IMG/VR virus record: IMGVR_UViG_3300047319_000254
Coordinates: 1-26,707 of that record
DNA from: a virus
DNA length: 26,707 nt
Reading direction: 5' to 3' (one strand)
The translations under genes were made by a program, and so were the position numbers. Of this stretch, positions 2,006 to 18,215 are shown piece after piece (the stretch's first letter is position 1; the number at the start of each line of letters is the position of its first letter). Below the pieces are notes generated by a model. That model was given only the letters and a program-made list of their open reading frames with translations. It did no database searches and was not told where the DNA came from.

Positions 2006-2455
2006 GAGACCATGCTCAAAAAAATAGCCGTTGGCATCGTGACCGCGGCAGCCATGTCATGCGCTTCGGCTGCAAATTGGCAGCCGTTTTTCGCAGGAAA
2101 CGATGGGTCGACCTCTTATGTCGAGGCAGCATCGCTGGCGACCCGAAGCGGCTTTGCCCGTGTCTGGACCTATATCACCTACCCAACCCAACAATACGAA
2201 CCGTCCTTCGGGTTTTTTTCTTCGCTAAGACAGCAGTTTCTAGTGGACTGCAAAAATCGGCAGTTTTCCCTCCTTCAAGCCCAGTCTTTTAGCGGCCCGG
2301 AACTGAGGGGCGCCCAGTCTGGCCAGTTGATGAACACCGATGCTCAGGCGAGAGCGTTTCTCACTGACCCAGCACCCGGCAGCATGGGGGAGTCAGTCGT
2401 TAGTCTTGCCTGCGCGCGATAGTCCATCTTCTGCTGTGCGATTTACCGGTCTGGG
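1987..2455 (+). repeat. Short direct repeat bounding the adhesin-E-like gene
   Basis: GATTTACCGGTC at 1987-1998 (the last codons of CI) recurs at 2440-2451, downstream of the next gene, and both copies continue into GGG-like sequence. Both copies are also followed by GAGACCATG before the next gene (2006-2014 and 2495-2503). The pair brackets the adhesin-E-like gene and looks like the footprint of a cassette inserted behind CI, or of a duplication of the CI end. Confidence 0.6.
2012..2422 (+). CDS. Secreted surface-adhesin-E-like protein (candidate lysogenic conversion gene)
   Basis: The 136-residue protein begins with a clear Sec signal peptide: Lys-Lys at residues 3-4, a hydrophobic core, and an A-x-A cleavage site near C-A-S-A|A-N (about residue 20). 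The mature part has W-x-x-x-x-x-x-x-D-G-S-T-S-Y-V-E, V-W-T-Y-I-T-Y, F-L-V-D-C-K, and a late cysteine (L-A-C-A-R). This pattern resembles the small surface-adhesin protein E family, known in pathogenic bacteria for binding host proteins; in phages the role is unknown. Two cysteines could form a disulfide. It follows CI by six bases on the same strand and should be expressed in the lysogen, so it is a candidate moron altering the cell envelope. The family assignment is from memory and moderate. Confidence 0.65.
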   Translation: MLKKIAVGIVTAAAMSCASAANWQPFFAGNDGSTSYVEAASLATRSGFARVWTYITYPTQQYEPSFGFFSSLRQQFLVDCKNRQFSLLQAQSFSGPELRGAQSGQLMNTDAQARAFLTDPAPGSMGESVVSLACAR

Positions 2456-9055: not shown

Positions 9056-9576
9056 TGGCACAAGCCGGAAAGAAAAGCGCCCCATGGACCGGCGCAGAAC
9101 TGAAGATCCTAAGGGAGATCAAGCAGAGCGGCCGTACGGTCAAGGAAAGCATGCACCTGCTGCCGGGGCGGACCTATATAGCCATCAAGCAGGCTATGTG
9201 CCGCGTGCCGGGCGACAAGAAAGCGCGTGGTCGCACCGGATGGGTAATGCCGTCGATGGTCCGCGTCCTGACTGATACGCCGAATCTCACCAATGCGCAG
9301 TTGGCGAAAGCCATCGGATGCACGCGTAACGCGCTCGACAGCGTCATCAGGGCCGAACTAGGCAATCGCATCTACATCGCCGACTGGACGCGCGCCGGGA
9401 CGCTCTGGGCGGCTCAATACGCCCTCGGCAACCGGCCGAACGCTCCCAAGCCGCCGCCGAGAACCACCGAGGAAAGCTATCGGGCGCAGAAGATCGCACG
9501 CGACGCCATCAAGCGGGCTCGCAATCCGTTCGCGGTGGTTATGCGGCAGGTCGTGGTTGAGGAGGCGCGGGCATGA
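9055..9576 (+). CDS. Probable DNA-binding regulator with an HTH domain
   Basis: The 173-residue protein starts at an ATG sharing its A with the previous stop; a GTG at 9052 would add one residue. The N-terminal part (W-T-G-A-E-L-K-I-L-R-E-I-K-Q-S-G-R-T-V-K-E-S) looks like a SANT/Myb or terminase-small-like tri-helix. The middle (L-T-N-A-Q-L-A-K-A-I-G-C-T-R-N-A-L-D-S-V-I-R-A-E-L) is a good helix-turn-helix. The C-terminus is basic and helical (A-R-D-A-I-K-R-A-R-N-P-F). It could control late or excision genes, since it precedes the PrtN-like gene and the integrase. Family membership is uncertain. Confidence 0.6.
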   Translation: MAQAGKKSAPWTGAELKILREIKQSGRTVKESMHLLPGRTYIAIKQAMCRVPGDKKARGRTGWVMPSMVRVLTDTPNLTNAQLAKAIGCTRNALDSVIRAELGNRIYIADWTRAGTLWAAQYALGNRPNAPKPPPRTTEESYRAQKIARDAIKRARNPFAVVMRQVVVEEARA

Positions 9577-9632
9577 TCAAGGCAGCGCAACGAATCATCG
9601 CAAAAACGAAAGACGCATGGGGTGTCAAATGA
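9573..9632 (+). CDS. Possible 19-residue leader peptide between two overlapping genes
   Basis: An ATG at 9573 overlaps the preceding stop and has GAGGAGG about 10 bases upstream. The frame encodes 19 mostly basic residues, and its stop overlaps the PrtN-like ATG (ATGA). It may be a real small protein or only a translational relay that hands ribosomes to the next gene. It is too short for any homology test. Confidence 0.3.
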   Translation: MIKAAQRIIAKTKDAWGVK

Positions 9633-9886
9633 AAACGGTATTCCTTCTGATGGCGCAGTTCGATAGCCGCCTGCAGCTCTCGCTAGACGACGTGTGCGAG
9701 GCGATCGGCTATGCGAAGCAGACCGCCTACAACGAAATCAGCGCCGGGTCGTTTCCGATCATGATGCAGAAGCGCGCGGGAAAATGGGTAGCAGACATCC
9801 GGGACGTGGCCGACTACCTCGACACGGCCAGAGCCGCGGCCAGGGTGCAATACGACAGGCAGAAACAACGAATGGCGCTGACGTGA
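9629..9886 (+). CDS. PrtN/pyocin-activator-like DNA-binding protein, possible excisionase
   Basis: The 85-residue protein starts M-K-T-V-F-L-L-M-A-Q-F-D-S-R, which matches the opening of the pyocin activator PrtN family (M-K-T-x-F-L-L-M-A-Q). It then has an HTH (L-D-D-V-C-E-A-I-G-Y-A-K-Q-T-A-Y-N-E-I-S-A-G) and W-V-A-D-I-R-D-V-A-D-Y-L-D near the end. PrtN activates pyocin genes in Pseudomonas. In phages the same fold often sits beside the integrase and may serve as an excisionase or a regulator. Here it ends one base from the stop of the convergent integrase gene. An excisionase role is inference from position. It would be expressed from the SOS-released early promoter, when excision is needed. 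Confidence 0.7.
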   Translation: MKTVFLLMAQFDSRLQLSLDDVCEAIGYAKQTAYNEISAGSFPIMMQKRAGKWVADIRDVADYLDTARAAARVQYDRQKQRMALT

Positions 9887-9887
9887 T

Positions 9888-10934
9888 TCAGGCGTCGCCG
9901 TTGGATACCGCCAGAAACAGCCCCCGATGCAGGTCCCGCGCGCGGACCTGCGTGTATCGCCTCAGCATCTTCCAGTCGCGGTGGCCGCTGACCAGCGCCA
10001 CCTGCTCTATCCGATAGCCCTGTTCGAACAGGCGCGAAATCCCCTCATGCCGCAGATCGTGGAAATGGAGATCGATGATCTTCAGGTCGGTGCACGCGCG
10101 CGGGAAGATGGTGGAAAAGCTCTTTTCGTTGTACGGGAAAATCCGGCCATCCGGGCTTTTCGGTTGCCGCATCACAATGTCGAACGCGTCGCCCAGCAGC
10201 GGCACAGTCTGATTGTTCCCGATCTTTTCCTGCGGGTGCTTGCGGTCGCGGATCAGGATTGTGCGCTCGGCCTCGTTGAGATCGTCGCGCCGCAGCGATG
10301 TGATCTCGCCCGCGCGCATCGTCGTCGCGATGGCAAACCGAATGATTTCCGACATGGGGATGCGCTGCCGGGGCTTGCCGTCGAAGTGGGCGCAGAGCGC
10401 GCTGATTTCCGCATCAGTCGGCCTGCGGTCGCGCTCCAGCGACTTAGATACTAGCGTCATGAACTTGAGTGAGGGTCGCGCGTCTTCTACCGGCGTTGCC
10501 TTGAACGGTATCTTGAACATGGTCCGCGCAATGCGAAGGATCTGCGCGAGATAGGTCATTTCAATGCCAATCGTGACGCCGCCAGCGCCCGCCTCGTTGC
10601 GCTTCTTCGCATACTCGACGAGGGCCGAGCTGGTGATTTCGGCCAGGCTCATTCCCGTCAGACCGCGGCGCAGCATGTCGAGCGCGCCCGCCTTCGACCT
10701 GCCGAACGGCTTCTTTTCTCCGATCTCGCGCTCATAGCGCTTGATCAGATCGTCGATGGTAATATCCGCCAGCCGTCGCTCGTCGTTGAATGCGCCGGCC
10801 CGCATGTCTTCCTCGATCCGCGCGGCCCATGCTTTGGCGTGCGACTGCTTGTCGAATGTCTGCGTGATTGGCGCATGCCCCTTGCGGCGGATCTGAGCCC
10901 GCCATTTGTCCCCGATCTTCAATATCGATGCCAC
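9888..10934 (-). CDS. int: Tyrosine-family integrase, predicted dusA-specific
   Basis: This is a 348-residue site-specific recombinase read from a GTG at 10934 with AGGGG six bases upstream. A longer frame to 11036 would run through the integrase promoter and arm sites and is rejected. The catalytic residues are visible: R207 in T-M-R-A-G-E-I, K232 in R-D-R-K-H-P-Q, H292-x-x-R295 in F-H-D-L-R-H, H318 in S-G-H-R-D-W, and nucleophile Y327 in R-R-Y-T-Q-V. The N-terminus (W-R-A-Q-I-R-R-K-G) is the arm-binding type. The adjacent attP carries a dusA 5' end, which predicts integration there. The gene is convergent with the early operon and reads from its own promoter, unlike lambda int. Late leftward readthrough could also reach it. 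Confidence 0.93.
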   Translation of the reverse strand: MASILKIGDKWRAQIRRKGHAPITQTFDKQSHAKAWAARIEEDMRAGAFNDERRLADITIDDLIKRYEREIGEKKPFGRSKAGALDMLRRGLTGMSLAEITSSALVEYAKKRNEAGAGGVTIGIEMTYLAQILRIARTMFKIPFKATPVEDARPSLKFMTLVSKSLERDRRPTDAEISALCAHFDGKPRQRIPMSEIIRFAIATTMRAGEITSLRRDDLNEAERTILIRDRKHPQEKIGNNQTVPLLGDAFDIVMRQPKSPDGRIFPYNEKSFSTIFPRACTDLKIIDLHFHDLRHEGISRLFEQGYRIEQVALVSGHRDWKMLRRYTQVRARDLHRGLFLAVSNGDA

Positions 10935-11023
10935 GGTCGCCCCTTTCGTTGTAGCAAAATTGTAGCAACAAAAGGTGAAAAGCAAGGAAACGGAGGTCAG
11001 AGTTGGTAGAATCACCTGTAGCA

Positions 11024-11159
11024 CAACATTCCGCAAACCGTTGATTTATATGGCTCAACCCAATGTTTACAAGGGTCGTCGGGTATGTATAGCCCCGATG
11101 ATGGACTGGTGCCAAGTAAGTTGATGGATGCGCAGCCAGCAAGGCTTTGCGGAATGTTG
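11024..11159. repeat. Inverted repeat flanking the attP core
   Basis: CAACATTCCGCAAA (11024-11037) is repeated as TTTGCGGAATGTTG (11146-11159), a perfect 14-base inverted repeat 108 bases apart with the dusA-like core between. Both arms abut a GTAGCA heptamer on their outer side. Likely roles are additional integrase or excisionase binding. It is too far apart to be a terminator. Confidence 0.75.
11050..11124 (+). other. attP core carrying the 5' end of dusA (tRNA-dihydrouridine synthase A)
   Basis: An ATG at 11050 opens 24 codons that include R-R-V-C-I-A-P-M-M-D-W, matching the strongly conserved N-terminal R-R-x-x-x-A-P-M-M-D-W-T-D of DusA, then diverging to C-Q-V-S and a stop. A phage that recombines inside this block (probably 11086-11109) would replace the first codons of host dusA and keep the gene readable from the phage-supplied ATG. 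Integration into the 5' end of dusA by a dedicated integrase group is known. No strong ribosome site precedes the ATG. The right-hand part would leave a short truncated frame on the host promoter at the other junction. Confidence 0.8.
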
Positions 11160-11205
11160 CTACGGATGCTGTAGCAACCCTGTAGCAACGCGCGCCAGAA
11201 ATAGC

Positions 11206-11229
11206 AAAGCCGCCCGAAGGCGGCTTTTT
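11206..11229. terminator. Bidirectional terminator between the lysis operon and attP
   Basis: AAAGCCGCC, a CGAA loop, and GGCGGCTTTTT form a seven-pair stem with T-runs on the plus strand and a shorter one on the minus strand. It immediately follows the stop codon of the leftward gene at 11229-11447. It likely stops late transcripts before they reach attP and int, and rightward transcripts from attP. Confidence 0.8.
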
Positions 11230-11447
11230 CATGTCCTTTCGCCCGGCTCCCGCGCCTCGTCTCCCGTAAAGCCGCGGCTGATCATCCTGTAATTCAGCGC
11301 CGTTGGCTGAGACGCGCCCGTCCGTTCGCAGAATCGCCATGTCGCGACGATCGCGAAATACTCAGCCTCGTGCCGTCTCAGGCCGCCGTCAATCTCCATG
11401 ATGGCGGCCCGCTCAAGCAGGTATTCGGTTGCGTTGTCATTGTCCAT
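11229..11447 (-). CDS. Small conserved phage hypothetical protein
   Basis: The 72-residue protein has the pattern A-x-x-x-L-L-E-R-A-A-I-M-E-I-D-G-G-L-R-R-H-E-A-E and A-T-W-R-F-C-E-R-T-G-A-S-Q-P-T, seen in many small phage proteins of unknown role, often near primase or replication genes. The start ATG is at 11447. It is the last gene of the leftward late/lysis transcript, and its stop codon touches the terminator hairpin. It is 28 bases downstream of the 3TM holin-like gene. The unusual placement after lysis genes suggests module shuffling. Confidence 0.65.
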   Translation of the reverse strand: MDNDNATEYLLERAAIMEIDGGLRRHEAEYFAIVATWRFCERTGASQPTALNYRMISRGFTGDEAREPGERT

Positions 11448-12969: not shown

Positions 12970-13146
12970 ATGAGAAAAAGGAGAACCGTCTTGCAGCTAT
13001 ACGTCACGGCCCTTGCGCCTATGGTTTGCGTCTGTATCTACTTTGGCCTCGCGCGACTAGTTTCTGCGCTGCGGCGGTGGCACAACAACCATCGGATTAA
13101 GAAGCCCATTGGGCTGCGCATTAAGCGGTTGTTTCGCCGTATCTGA
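12970..13146 (+). CDS. Possible small membrane protein on the opposite strand
   Basis: A plus-strand frame of 58 residues starts at an ATG at 12970. A TTG at 12991, preceded by AAGGAG, is an alternative start. Its middle (L-Q-L-Y-V-T-A-L-A-P-M-V-C-V-C-I-Y-F-G-L-A-R-L-V) is a convincing membrane span, and its C-terminus is very basic. It is the only coding candidate in the gap 12960-13056, but its last 90 bases lie antisense to the ejection gene, and no promoter was found. It may be chance. Confidence 0.3.
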   Translation: MRKRRTVLQLYVTALAPMVCVCIYFGLARLVSALRRWHNNHRIKKPIGLRIKRLFRRI

Positions 13147-15135
13147 TAGCAGGCCACCGAGCGCCTTGCTCACAAACAGGCGGTTCTGTGCGTTCTCAAG
13201 CAGACCGCCGACATACGGCAGTTTCGTCAGCCCCGAGGCAGTATTGGACGTGTTGACCGGGGCCGATGATGGGAAGGCATTCATGTACGAGCCGACTCGC
13301 CCGATTGCATTCAGCTGAGCAAGCTCATCCGGCGTATAAAACGCGCCGAGCTTCGTCGGCCCGAAAGCCTGCATCTGCTGGGCATAGCCCGCCGGCTTGA
13401 ACGGCGCATCGCCGGCCACGTTATTCCCGAATCCCTTCAGCGCGAGCTGCGCGCCGATCTGATTGCGCGCTTCAGCGAACGCCCCAGGATCTTGAGACTT
13501 CAGCAGGTTCGCCAGCGCGCTCACCTGATCCGTCTTGCCACCGATGATGAATTTGCGGACGAAGTCGTCCGGATTGATAGAGTCGCTAGCTGAGGCTTCG
13601 AGCGCCGGAATCTGATCGTGAAGGGCGAAGCGTTGCGCAGCCAGCGCCCGGGCCGGCGCATAGACGCCGCCCTGATCGTCGGCCGACAGAATGGCGTTCT
13701 TGACGCTGTTGCGAAGCGTGCCGAGCGCGGCGTTCGTCGCCGGGTCGTTGCTCTGGTTTGCATTGATGACCTTCAGCAGGTTCTCGGCGTTCTCAATCGA
13801 GAAGGTTTTTTGCTGCGTGCCGCCCATCAGTCCAAGCTGATTGAAGTTGTTGCGCACGCCGCTCGGGACCTTGTCGCCGAAGTCGTTCAGCACCTGCGCA
13901 TAGTCCTGCGCTAGGCCGCTCAGCGGGACGTCCAGATTCTTCCCGCTCGACGTGCGCGCCGCGGTATAGGCGTCGGTAACCTGCTGCCTCATCCCATTGT
14001 CTATGGACTTCAGCGAGCCCTTCAGCGCAGAGCCCGCCTGGAAGGTATCGGCGGGGTTACCAGCGAGCCCGTAGAGCGCCTGTTGCAGTTGCGTGTTCTG
14101 CTGGTTGAACCGGTTTGCCAGTGGCTCGCCGACGCGGCTCAAACCGCGCATGTTGAGTTCCTGCGCGAATTGCGTCGGATCGCGGGTGATCTGACCGAGC
14201 GTCGGTTGCATGCCAAGGGCGGTGAAGTCTTGCGCGCGCATCGCAGCGGCCGGATCAACGTTCGGAGACTGCTGGATTGCCTGAGCTACTTGCTGCTTGA
14301 TTGGCGACAGGACTCCAATCGGATTGTTCGGGTCAGCAGGCCCGACCAACGGCGCATCCGGCGCGAACGACTGACTTGCTTGCGGGCCGAGTTCCCTGAT
14401 TGCCTGATCTACGCCGGCATCCGCACGCGACGCGGCCGCCTGAGGCGAGATTGGCGGCGCCGTCGTGAATTTAGGCCCAAAGGCGCGCACACCAGACGTT
14501 GCCAGCGAGCCCGCACCAACACCGGCCGCACCGCCGAGAAGTCCGCCTGCAATCTGCCATCCGGGGCCAAGGCCGATCTCCCTCGCCCCGCCTGATCCTG
14601 CGCCCGCGCCGGCGGCCCCGAGCATCTGCATGCCCGGCGCCACTTGCAAAGACCGACCGACTGACTGCGCAACCGGCGATGCCATCGAACCGACTACTTT
14701 GCCGAGCCCGACAGATGGCACGACGCTCGCCATCCCGCTTGCGGCGTCCTGAACCATCCTCTCGGTTGCGTTTTGCGGTTGCGGGACGCCGACAGCATTC
14801 ATCCCGCTCTGGATAACGGCAGACGGCATCTGCAAGTCTTGAATATGGGTGCCAGCAAGGGCATTGACGCCATGAATGCCGAGGTTGGTCACCGTGTTGA
14901 GGCCATCCCCCACCATCGCGGGCAGTGCTGTAATTCCTGTTACGCCCGCGCGCGCCGTCAGGCCCAACTGACGACCGAACTGGCTAAGCAGAGACGGGGA
15001 CGATGCCTGCACCGGCGCAGTGGCCACCGGGCGCCCTGACGCGTCCGCGATGAACTGGTCAGCCATCGAAGACTGCGCCGTAACTGTGCCTTGTGCGCCA
15101 ACATCCGCGAGAAACTGATCTGCGAGGCCGGCCAT
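13057..15135 (-). CDS. Large virion protein, probable DNA-ejection/internal protein
   Basis: The 692-residue protein is low in charge and rich in Ala, Gly, Gln, Ser, and Asn. The N-terminus contains two related units, L-A-D-Q-F-L-A-D and M-A-D-Q-F-I-A-D, each followed by T/A-rich spacers. Several long Gly/Ala hydrophobic stretches (for example A-G-A-G-A-G-S-G-G and L-L-G-G-A-A-G-V-G-A-G) could insert in membranes. It then shows a helical region (residues about 240-600) with repeated Q-A-L/Q-A-I motifs. Together with the two proteins upstream, it fits the three ejection proteins of podoviruses that form a channel for DNA. Family recognition is by composition and position only. Confidence 0.65.
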   Translation of the reverse strand: MAGLADQFLADVGAQGTVTAQSSMADQFIADASGRPVATAPVQASSPSLLSQFGRQLGLTARAGVTGITALPAMVGDGLNTVTNLGIHGVNALAGTHIQDLQMPSAVIQSGMNAVGVPQPQNATERMVQDAASGMASVVPSVGLGKVVGSMASPVAQSVGRSLQVAPGMQMLGAAGAGAGSGGAREIGLGPGWQIAGGLLGGAAGVGAGSLATSGVRAFGPKFTTAPPISPQAAASRADAGVDQAIRELGPQASQSFAPDAPLVGPADPNNPIGVLSPIKQQVAQAIQQSPNVDPAAAMRAQDFTALGMQPTLGQITRDPTQFAQELNMRGLSRVGEPLANRFNQQNTQLQQALYGLAGNPADTFQAGSALKGSLKSIDNGMRQQVTDAYTAARTSSGKNLDVPLSGLAQDYAQVLNDFGDKVPSGVRNNFNQLGLMGGTQQKTFSIENAENLLKVINANQSNDPATNAALGTLRNSVKNAILSADDQGGVYAPARALAAQRFALHDQIPALEASASDSINPDDFVRKFIIGGKTDQVSALANLLKSQDPGAFAEARNQIGAQLALKGFGNNVAGDAPFKPAGYAQQMQAFGPTKLGAFYTPDELAQLNAIGRVGSYMNAFPSSAPVNTSNTASGLTKLPYVGGLLENAQNRLFVSKALGGLLSDTAKQPLNAQPNGLLNPMVVVPPPQRRN

Positions 15136-16892
15136 TAGAACGCCCCCATTTGCTGGAGAGTGCGGATCTTGTTCACGATGGTTGGGTCTTGCTGCATCAG
15201 CTTCTTCGCGAACGCCTGCCTCGCCGTCGGGTCCTTAATATTCGCGTACTGGAATATGCGCTGATCGGCGTTCTGATCGAACTTCATTTCGGCGTTGTTG
15301 TATGCGACCGGGTCACGAGTATTCGCCAAGGGCGCGAGAAGTCGAGTTTTTGCCTGCACCATCGCATTCCCGCCCATCAGACTGTCCGCCGCCTCATTGA
15401 TTGCCTGTGGCGTCATGTGCGCGTTGGGATAGGCTGACTGAAGGATGGAGCGGGCTGCGTCGGTGCCAAGACCGCCAGTGCCCAAGCGGGCGACAATCTG
15501 ATTCGAATATTTGTCCAGCAGATTGTTCGCTGTTACAGCGTCCGTCGCTCTCTCGCTACCAGCAAGTGAAAGCAGGCCATTCACATAGTTGATGCGGTCG
15601 GATTGCTGGCCAGTCGCCGCCTGACTCGCAAGCCCCTTGATGCTTTGCAGATACGAGTTCGTCGTCTGAGCCTGGGTATTCTGGCCGCTAAGGTCCGTCC
15701 ACTTCTTCGACAACTCGTTTTGCAAGTTCGTCGCAGCGGCCTGAGCGCCAGCCGGAGCCCCCATCGGAGGCGCAGCATAGATAGGGGCGCGCCCAGCAGG
15801 CGCGGCGGGAGCCCCGGCGCTTACCGGTGCCCCACCAGGAACCGGGCCGCCCGGCAGCGGAACGGGCGAGCCGCCCTGCGCCTGCGGACCGCCGAGACCC
15901 GCCATCGTCGGGATCGGCGGCGGCTGATTGCCGAATGCGCCCCCGGTCGCGGCAGAAGTCCGATTCGTGACTGGCAGAGGATTGCCCTGCGCATCGACAC
16001 CCGAAAATGGCAAGACGCTACCCTCACCGCCCGCCTTCGCCGCAGCAGATGCAGCGATAGCATCGTTCGCACCGGCCACCGGCACGATCTGCCAGCCGTT
16101 TGGCCCCTGCACTGCCGTATAGCCCTCGGGCACTTGCGGCAGTTGCTGCATAGACCCAGTCGCGGGGTTGTACGCGAAGCCACCACCGCGAAACGCCTGC
16201 AGCGGCATGTTGTTCAGCTTGGCGACCTGCTGCTGAATCATTTGCTTGCCGAGCGTGCTGCTGGGATCGATGCCGGACGCGCGCAGCAGCTTCTGGAAAT
16301 CGGTCGGCGAGTATTGGGCAAGCATGCTGTCGACGAGCTTGTCCGGCGATAGCGCGAGCGCGAGCCCGGCCTGTTGAGTCGGGATGCTGCCGAACAGCCC
16401 GCCGGATTGTGGTGCAGCAGCGGGCGCGGCCTGAGGTTGCGGTGCCGCGGGCACATCGGCTTGCGGTGCCTGAGGCGCGGCCCCCATGTTCGGAACAGGC
16501 GCCGACGATACGCCCGGGCCAGAGCCATCCGAGCCCGGCGGCAGACCGCCCGCATCGAGAACCGGAATGCCGGTGCCACCTGTCTGCGGCGCGCTCGCCT
16601 GCGCTGGTGCTCCCTGCTGCCCCGAGAACGCGCCCTGCAGAATGCTGTTCAGCAGACCGCTTTTATTCGCCTGATACTGCAGGTTCTGCAACTGCAGCGC
16701 CTTCGACATGCGATCGTACTGGTGATCGATCGCACCCTGGTAGCCGCCGACCGCCCCCTGAAGCCCCTGCGCGAGCACACTGCCGAGACCCACCGGCATC
16801 CGGCTCGGGCCGCTGGCCGCCATCATGTTCGTGCCGGCAGACAGCAGGCCCAGCGTCGTCGGGTCATTCATCAAACCGTCTAGAAGTCCCAT
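15135..16892 (-). CDS. Internal virion protein, Pro/Ala/Gly-rich, probable ejection component
   Basis: The 585-residue protein starts M-G-L-L-D-G-L-M-N-D and has a helical N-terminus (T-T-L-G-L-L-S-A-G-T-N-M-M-A-A). A central disordered block of Ala, Pro, and Gly (about residues 90-170 and 330-400) is followed by a folded C-terminus with L-L-D-K-Y-S-N-Q-I-V-A-R and A-R-S-I-L-Q-S-A-Y-P. Its stop overlaps the start of the following gene (TAATG). Composition and place in the operon support an internal or ejection protein; no catalytic motif is seen. Confidence 0.62.
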   Translation of the reverse strand: MGLLDGLMNDPTTLGLLSAGTNMMAASGPSRMPVGLGSVLAQGLQGAVGGYQGAIDHQYDRMSKALQLQNLQYQANKSGLLNSILQGAFSGQQGAPAQASAPQTGGTGIPVLDAGGLPPGSDGSGPGVSSAPVPNMGAAPQAPQADVPAAPQPQAAPAAAPQSGGLFGSIPTQQAGLALALSPDKLVDSMLAQYSPTDFQKLLRASGIDPSSTLGKQMIQQQVAKLNNMPLQAFRGGGFAYNPATGSMQQLPQVPEGYTAVQGPNGWQIVPVAGANDAIAASAAAKAGGEGSVLPFSGVDAQGNPLPVTNRTSAATGGAFGNQPPPIPTMAGLGGPQAQGGSPVPLPGGPVPGGAPVSAGAPAAPAGRAPIYAAPPMGAPAGAQAAATNLQNELSKKWTDLSGQNTQAQTTNSYLQSIKGLASQAATGQQSDRINYVNGLLSLAGSERATDAVTANNLLDKYSNQIVARLGTGGLGTDAARSILQSAYPNAHMTPQAINEAADSLMGGNAMVQAKTRLLAPLANTRDPVAYNNAEMKFDQNADQRIFQYANIKDPTARQAFAKKLMQQDPTIVNKIRTLQQMGAF

Positions 16893-16901
16893 GTGTGCGC
16901 C

Positions 16902-18215
16902 TTAACCGTAGTTGGACGGGTTGTCGAAGCCGGAATAGGCCGACTGGTAAGACGGGTTGAAGCCCGATGAGCTCGGCGAGCCAGCCGCATTTTTGTAGGC
17001 GTTGTAAAGCCCGAGACCCGCCGTCGCGCCCCCGACTGCATTACCAACCGGATTCGTGAAATACGGTGTGGTCTGCGAAACGGAGCCACCCAGCCCGGTG
17101 AATGGTGAAAGCATGTTCGTGACCTGCTGCTGTTGCCAAAACGGATAGGCGTTCTGTGTCGAGCCGTAGTTATAGATCTGGCCGGTCAAGCTGCCGATCT
17201 GGCTCATTGCACCGAGCGCGTTCGAACTGTTGAGCGCGTTCGTCGAGAGGTTCGATTGCTGATTGGACTGCGCCGCCTGCTGCGTCAATTGCGCATTCGT
17301 GAGCCCGGCTTGTTGCTGGAAGCCGGCATTCGTCGCGTTCGCCTGCTGCTGGTTTTGCAGGTTGGCGAGATTCATACCCTGCTGCAGGCTGGCATTCTGC
17401 GACGCCACGCCATACTGTTGATTCGACAGGTTGTTGAGCGCAGACAGAGCATTCGACTGACCCTGCATGTAGGTGTTGGCCTGAGCATTCGCGGCGGCAT
17501 CCTGATTGTTCATGCCCATCTGCGCGCCTGCCTGCGCGAGCGCGGTGCCGTACTGACCGATGGCGTTGCCTTGCGCGATGCCCTGCCGCGAGCCGCCATA
17601 ACCACCGGCGGCCACCGCCCCCGAATTGATCCCCGGCAACACGTTCTGCGTCAGGTTGCGCGTCGCGTTGGTCATCGAGTTGTTGTAGGCGTCGTTCGCC
17701 TGATCGATACCCTGCTGAATCTGACCCCTCAGATACGGGTTGTTGCCGGACGCGCCGCTCAGCATGTTCTGATACGTCGGAGCCAGGTTGATACCGTTCT
17801 GGTTCGGCGCATTGATTTGCGCGGCGTTGCCCTGTGCCGCATTCATTCCGGCCGCCTGCATCGATGCCGCGTTCATCGTCGGCGTCTGCTGGCTCCAGCC
17901 GAGCATGCCGTTCGCGGTGTTCAGCGAGTGGCCGAGAAGGCCAAGGGGTGCGCCAGAGCCGAGATATGAATTCGCGTCGTTGCCGAACTGCGCGAGGCCC
18001 GCGTTCTGCGGGGTCCACTGCATGTTGTAAGTGCTATTTGCGAGGCCCGGATGCTGAGCCCCGGTGCTGTCCGTGAACCCGTACAGCATTCCGTGCATGG
18101 CCGGGTCGAGGCTCATCGTCTGCGTGCTCGTCGTCGAGCCTCCTCCGTCGCCCCCCGAGAGGCTCCCAGCCGCCCCGATCACCGCTGCACCCGCGCCTAT
18201 CCAAGCTGCTGGCAT
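16902..18215 (-). CDS. Internal virion protein, Gln/Asn/Ala-rich, probable ejection component
   Basis: The 437-residue protein starts M-P-A-A-W-I-G-A-G-A-A-V-I-G-A-A, a hydrophobic glycine-rich N-terminus like those of P22-type ejection proteins. Much of the rest is Asn/Gln/Ala-rich helix with heptad-like spacing (about residues 225-330). No cysteine is visible. It is the first of three adjacent large low-complexity proteins and lies just downstream of the cupin gene, one base from its stop. The role is inferred from composition, size, and gene order. Confidence 0.62.
   Translation of the reverse strand: MPAAWIGAGAAVIGAAGSLSGGDGGGSTTSTQTMSLDPAMHGMLYGFTDSTGAQHPGLANSTYNMQWTPQNAGLAQFGNDANSYLGSGAPLGLLGHSLNTANGMLGWSQQTPTMNAASMQAAGMNAAQGNAAQINAPNQNGINLAPTYQNMLSGASGNNPYLRGQIQQGIDQANDAYNNSMTNATRNLTQNVLPGINSGAVAAGGYGGSRQGIAQGNAIGQYGTALAQAGAQMGMNNQDAAANAQANTYMQGQSNALSALNNLSNQQYGVASQNASLQQGMNLANLQNQQQANATNAGFQQQAGLTNAQLTQQAAQSNQQSNLSTNALNSSNALGAMSQIGSLTGQIYNYGSTQNAYPFWQQQQVTNMLSPFTGLGGSVSQTTPYFTNPVGNAVGGATAGLGLYNAYKNAAGSPSSSGFNPSYQSAYSGFDNPSNYG

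Follow-up and report, generated by a model that had tools for sequence, protein, structure and literature searches.

Integrases that act at the 5' end of dusA and replace that end with sequence of the integrating element were described by Farrugia et al. in 2015 (PMC4482086). That study reported a semiconserved attachment site with a 21-bp logo, a replacement first beta strand, and putative promoters, confirmed excision by PCR, and named the phages BcepIL02, BcepMigl, DC1, and H66 as carriers of a dusA-associated integrase (DAI). In this study, we analyzed a linear virus record of 26.7 kb (26,707 nt; IMG/VR record IMGVR_UViG_3300047319_000254), the whole of which we call the window. The phage that it represents adds one more member to the dusA-associated integrase elements, whose strategy has been known since 2015 (PMC4482086). 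It shares with the DAI elements and dusA genomic islands the gene, the 5' site, the integrase family, and a design in which a new start and the first beta strand come from the element; unlike them, it lacks a DNA counterpart in the phage collection searched, where megablast of the window returned no real relative and one short match of 101 bases. Catalytic tyrosine recombinase residues, homology to DAIs, the dusA 5' site, and an in-frame replacement 5' end (the last in the integrated relative L003 and 13 genomes) are all found in this group. The Burkholderia phages BcepIL02, BcepMigl, and DC1 carry, like the window, an APMMDW-encoding dusA start (here called the cap) directly upstream of int, and the same kind of cap is present in H66, PS6, and N133. 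The window integrase is 38 to 41% identical to those of BcepIL02, BcepMigl, DC1, and H66 over 89 to 94% of the length, and at most 44% identical to integrases of deposited phages; the rest of the window is dissimilar to BcepIL02, BcepMigl, and DC1 at the megablast level. What we add to the earlier work (PMC4482086) is a measured coding constraint on the cap and, for a single integrase clade, the free, integrated, and empty forms side by side.

Positions 10950 to 11189 are almost certainly the attP by which a temperate tailed phage inserts itself site specifically at the 5' end of dusA. The parts of the site and its neighboring genes are as follows.

9557-9886, + strand: probable excisionase (Xis), a small HTH protein convergent with int; phrog_1300 excisionase, E 2.7e-12
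9888-10934, - strand: dusA-associated tyrosine integrase, 348 aa with a GTG start; PF00589, E 1.5e-17; phrog_1 integrase
10950-10970, + strand: P arm, a tandem pair of arm-type-like TGTAGCAA copies (at 10950 and 10961), 11 bp apart
11024-11043, + strand: left arm of an inverted repeat around the cap and core, 20 nt
11050-11124, + strand: phage-encoded dusA 5' cap, 24 codons, ATG at 11050 and TGA at 11122-11124
11092-11109, + strand: attP core GCCCCGATGATGGACTGG, 18 bp, encoding A-P-M-M-D-W and equal to dusA in many Burkholderiaceae
11140-11159, + strand: right arm of the inverted repeat, 20 nt
11170-11189, + strand: P' arm, a second tandem pair of TGTAGCAA copies (at 11170 and 11181), 11 bp apart

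To the left of the site lie early and regulatory genes (a repressor, RecT, a RecE-like exonuclease, and Xis), and to the right lie endolysin, structural proteins, the major head protein, and scaffold. Because phage genes occupy both flanks as halves of one gene set, the site is an attP rather than the end of a single prophage. No tRNA that might serve as an alternative att site was present in the window, and an Rfam search of the window gave no match. Residues R207, K232, H292, R295, H318, and Y327 of the integrase are invariant in our integrase alignment (A1), and its GTG start is ATG in L002, a relative from another sample with a 99% identical integrase. The probable Xis also matches the Pfam family PyocinActivator PrtN (E 1.2e-6). 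Elsewhere among the early genes, a 136-aa ORF at 2012-2422 (+ strand) matches Pfam Surface-adhesin protein E (E 5.8e-16), which is unexpected in such a region of a phage.

The cap lies 115 bp upstream of the integrase gene and translates as MAQPNVYKGRRVCIAPMMDWCQVS followed by the stop. Its start codon and initial 20 codons belong to the hybrid DusA, and in the free phage CQVS and a stop come next. The sole NCBIfam match of the 24-aa peptide is DusA NF008774 (E 0.0079), with residues 3 to 22 on model positions 6 to 25. The 24-codon ATG frame with a DusA N terminus and then a stop, which an earlier note had read from the letters, is borne out. Even when three mismatches are permitted, the core has a single occurrence in the window (0.06 expected). 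The earlier note had also looked to nucleotide identity with host dusA; this holds over the core, at 18/18 nt in many Burkholderiaceae, but upstream the resemblance is at the amino acid level and uses other codons, with a nucleotide match of at best 25/30 over the last 30 nt. Since strong DNA identity is confined to the core of about 18 bp, the cap is a version of the dusA 5' end that belongs to the phage and was not copied from host DNA. No obvious Shine-Dalgarno sequence precedes the cap ATG, and a consensus scan of 10850-11300 found no sigma-70-like promoter.

Around the core, the coordinates and repeat counts agree with the remaining features that the earlier note had listed for attP, namely, a neighboring int, paired arm sites, and an inverted repeat. 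The 8-mer TGTAGCAA has four copies in 26.7 kb, all of them flanking the core, with 0.26 expected and none of 100 shuffles reaching four, and the two arms of the inverted repeat are 90% complementary. The TGTAGCAA repeats probably bind integrase. Several other attP-form relatives have paired 8-mers on either side of the core, often at 10- to 12-bp spacing, and these differ in sequence (TCTCCGTA, TCCGTAAT, and TTGGTGCA), as expected if every integrase has its own arm sites. In some relatives, e.g., DC1 and PS6, a search for paired arm repeats gave nothing clear above shuffles.

Close relatives of the integrase exist in two forms, one in which the cap ends at a stop (free phage) and one in which it runs into a complete dusA (integrated). 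We found 27 viral loci through the integrase, and in each of the 17 that share at least 49% identity and extend far enough upstream, an APMMD cap lies directly upstream of int; among the capped viral loci, some have a stop a few codons on, and in others the frame continues into DusA. L002 has the attP form. L003, with an 81% identical integrase, has the integrated form, and its cap runs into a 333-aa DusA that scores 557.6 bits against a cutoff of 269 bits. The host part of this gene is 93% identical to dusA of a Burkholderiaceae genome, and the sequence 3' of it looks like the beginning of a tRNA gene, an arrangement shared with Paraburkholderia. Among named-genome relatives (41 to 65% integrase identity), int lies beside a full dusA in 13 of 14, and in the 14th the cap is ended by a stop. 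The hybrid junctions that the earlier note had predicted for lysogens are thus found, with the cap fused in frame to full-length DusA beside integrase relatives in named genomes. Prophages at another locus, which it had held to be fatal to the idea, did not appear: no integrase relative of at least 49% identity with upstream sequence was without the cap. Integrases of 23 to 43% identity in related bacteria or in head-protein-sharing phages have no cap and provide a useful negative control, and a search for a close lysogen in 58 genomes of the genus nearest the L003 host found integrases of at most 43% identity, none with a cap. Most relatives by major head protein, several of whose records are fragments, have no integrase or an unrelated one and no core motif, indicating that it is the integrase, rather than the capsid genes, with which the cap moves. 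One and the same relative (L002/L168) has an integrase 99% identical to that of the window and a major head protein that is 91% identical, which suggests module exchange involving the int-attP unit.

The outcome of integration is best seen in the prophage of Paraburkholderia caffeinitolerans LMG 28688 (L029/L005), whose integrase is 65% identical to that of the window and whose cap/dusA junction has the same design with a different cap sequence, MKSTAKSRPRKVAV. About 48.7 kb separates the two core copies of this prophage, and we compared both junctions in silico with dusA of the nearest prophage-free relative; a mismatch-tolerant core search across whole genomes was too noisy for use by itself. 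The far-side copy retains the host dusA 5' end (41/42 nt, 97.6%, versus the empty-site relative) and then enters phage sequence, while the int-side copy opens with foreign sequence at its 5' end and continues as host dusA (95.8% over 600 nt downstream). The swapped halves match the empty site at 47.6% (int-side cap, upstream) and 26.8% (far side, downstream), and the flanks are compatible with the empty site. The displaced host dusA start, at the prophage end away from int, reads MSTHRIASPRRVSVAPMMDRTKVKEKSF and a stop. A mismatch to the empty site at position 16 of the far-side core places the crossover before that position, and the left limit of the crossover probably lies at about position 4. 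By analogy with this lysogen, crossover in the attP core of the window would fall within about 11095-11106. Both junctions are also seen in three further prophages, from Herbaspirillum, Duganella, and Undibacterium. No lysogen of the very phage in the window turned up. The proposal that the first host codons are exchanged for phage ones while dusA is kept readable fits the junctions of the relatives, at both ends in P. caffeinitolerans.

The joint might instead be the internal junction of two tandem dusA-inserted prophages in one bacterium rather than the attP of a monomer. There is a precedent in Massilia pinisoli, in which two related integrases lie 12 kb apart next to one dusA, with a stop-ended cap between the integrases, and the window record is a linear fragment. 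We nevertheless regard this as exceedingly improbable, since the flanks form one nonredundant phage gene set, identical arm repeats stand on both sides, and the same joint recurs in L002. The probability is practically negligible that the cap is a captured or degenerate dusA fragment, a pseudogene or remnant beside int with no role in integration; it is short and ends at a stop, as a remnant might, but in integrated relatives it sits exactly at the junction and ends at the recombination core, and it is under protein-level constraint.

It is also highly improbable that the site is an attP in which the cap is only a recognition sequence of the integrase, its coding potential being incidental to its match with dusA. 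A match to host DNA is required of the core, which agrees with such a role, but the codons upstream of the core differ synonymously from those of the host with the residues kept, a pN/pS of about 0.5 is found solely in the dusA frame, and the cap DNA is the only start of dusA once the phage is integrated. The pN/pS values come from 33 nonredundant caps and 500 column shuffles. Over the five codons before the core, pN/pS was 0.49 in the dusA frame versus 2.12 and 1.07 in the other frames, and 0/500 shuffles were as low, a figure that is not a strict probability, given the small number and the relatedness of the sequences. Taken by themselves, the 16 attP-form caps gave 0.53, again with 0/500 shuffles as low. 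Little or no constraint was seen at codons -14 to -8 (0.97) or over the seven attP codons that follow the core (0.87). Protein-level constraint acts on the codons immediately preceding the core, and the difference between frames is clear. Lysogens whose DusA has a good N terminus are probably favored, and the constraint on the cap backs the idea that lysogens need working DusA.

In our preferred model, the integrase recognizes the 18-bp A-P-M-M-D-W core common to attP and the host gene, and strand exchange inside the core splits dusA. The host promoter and start codon are left behind at the prophage end away from int, where they meet a phage stop codon. Beside int, the phage start codon, the first ~14 codons, and their own upstream DNA are joined in frame to the remaining dusA, and through this fusion the hybrid DusA retains its first beta strand. 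Sequence evidence shows the anatomy of attP, the junctions on both sides in relatives, the empty site, and the coding constraint on the cap. We infer that the integrase of the window carries out the dusA recombination and that phage DNA provides a working promoter and ribosome binding for dusA. A conceivable but unlikely extension is that, beyond repairing the split gene, the cap together with the DNA upstream of it determines dusA expression in lysogens; dihydrouridine at position 20/20a of host tRNA would then be retuned by lysogeny. The window offers a clean attP (arms, core, and cap) for an uncharacterized phage group and makes the exchange of the first codons of a host gene directly testable.

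Some loci among the relatives and in the window merit separate mention. In M. pinisoli (L088-L089; G007 contig C26, 15471-28889), three cap/core joints (15471, 25161, and 27725) accompany the integrase pair and the single dusA next to it, an apparent tandem accretion of elements at one site. The integrase match beside dusA in Undibacterium macrobrachii (G008:C1:450404-451408) contains one TAA, which possibly lies at or near its end or marks a decayed copy. Finally, between the endolysin and structural genes of the window, 13057-18215 (- strand) holds three large ORFs (692, 585, and 437 aa) without a PHROG or Pfam match.
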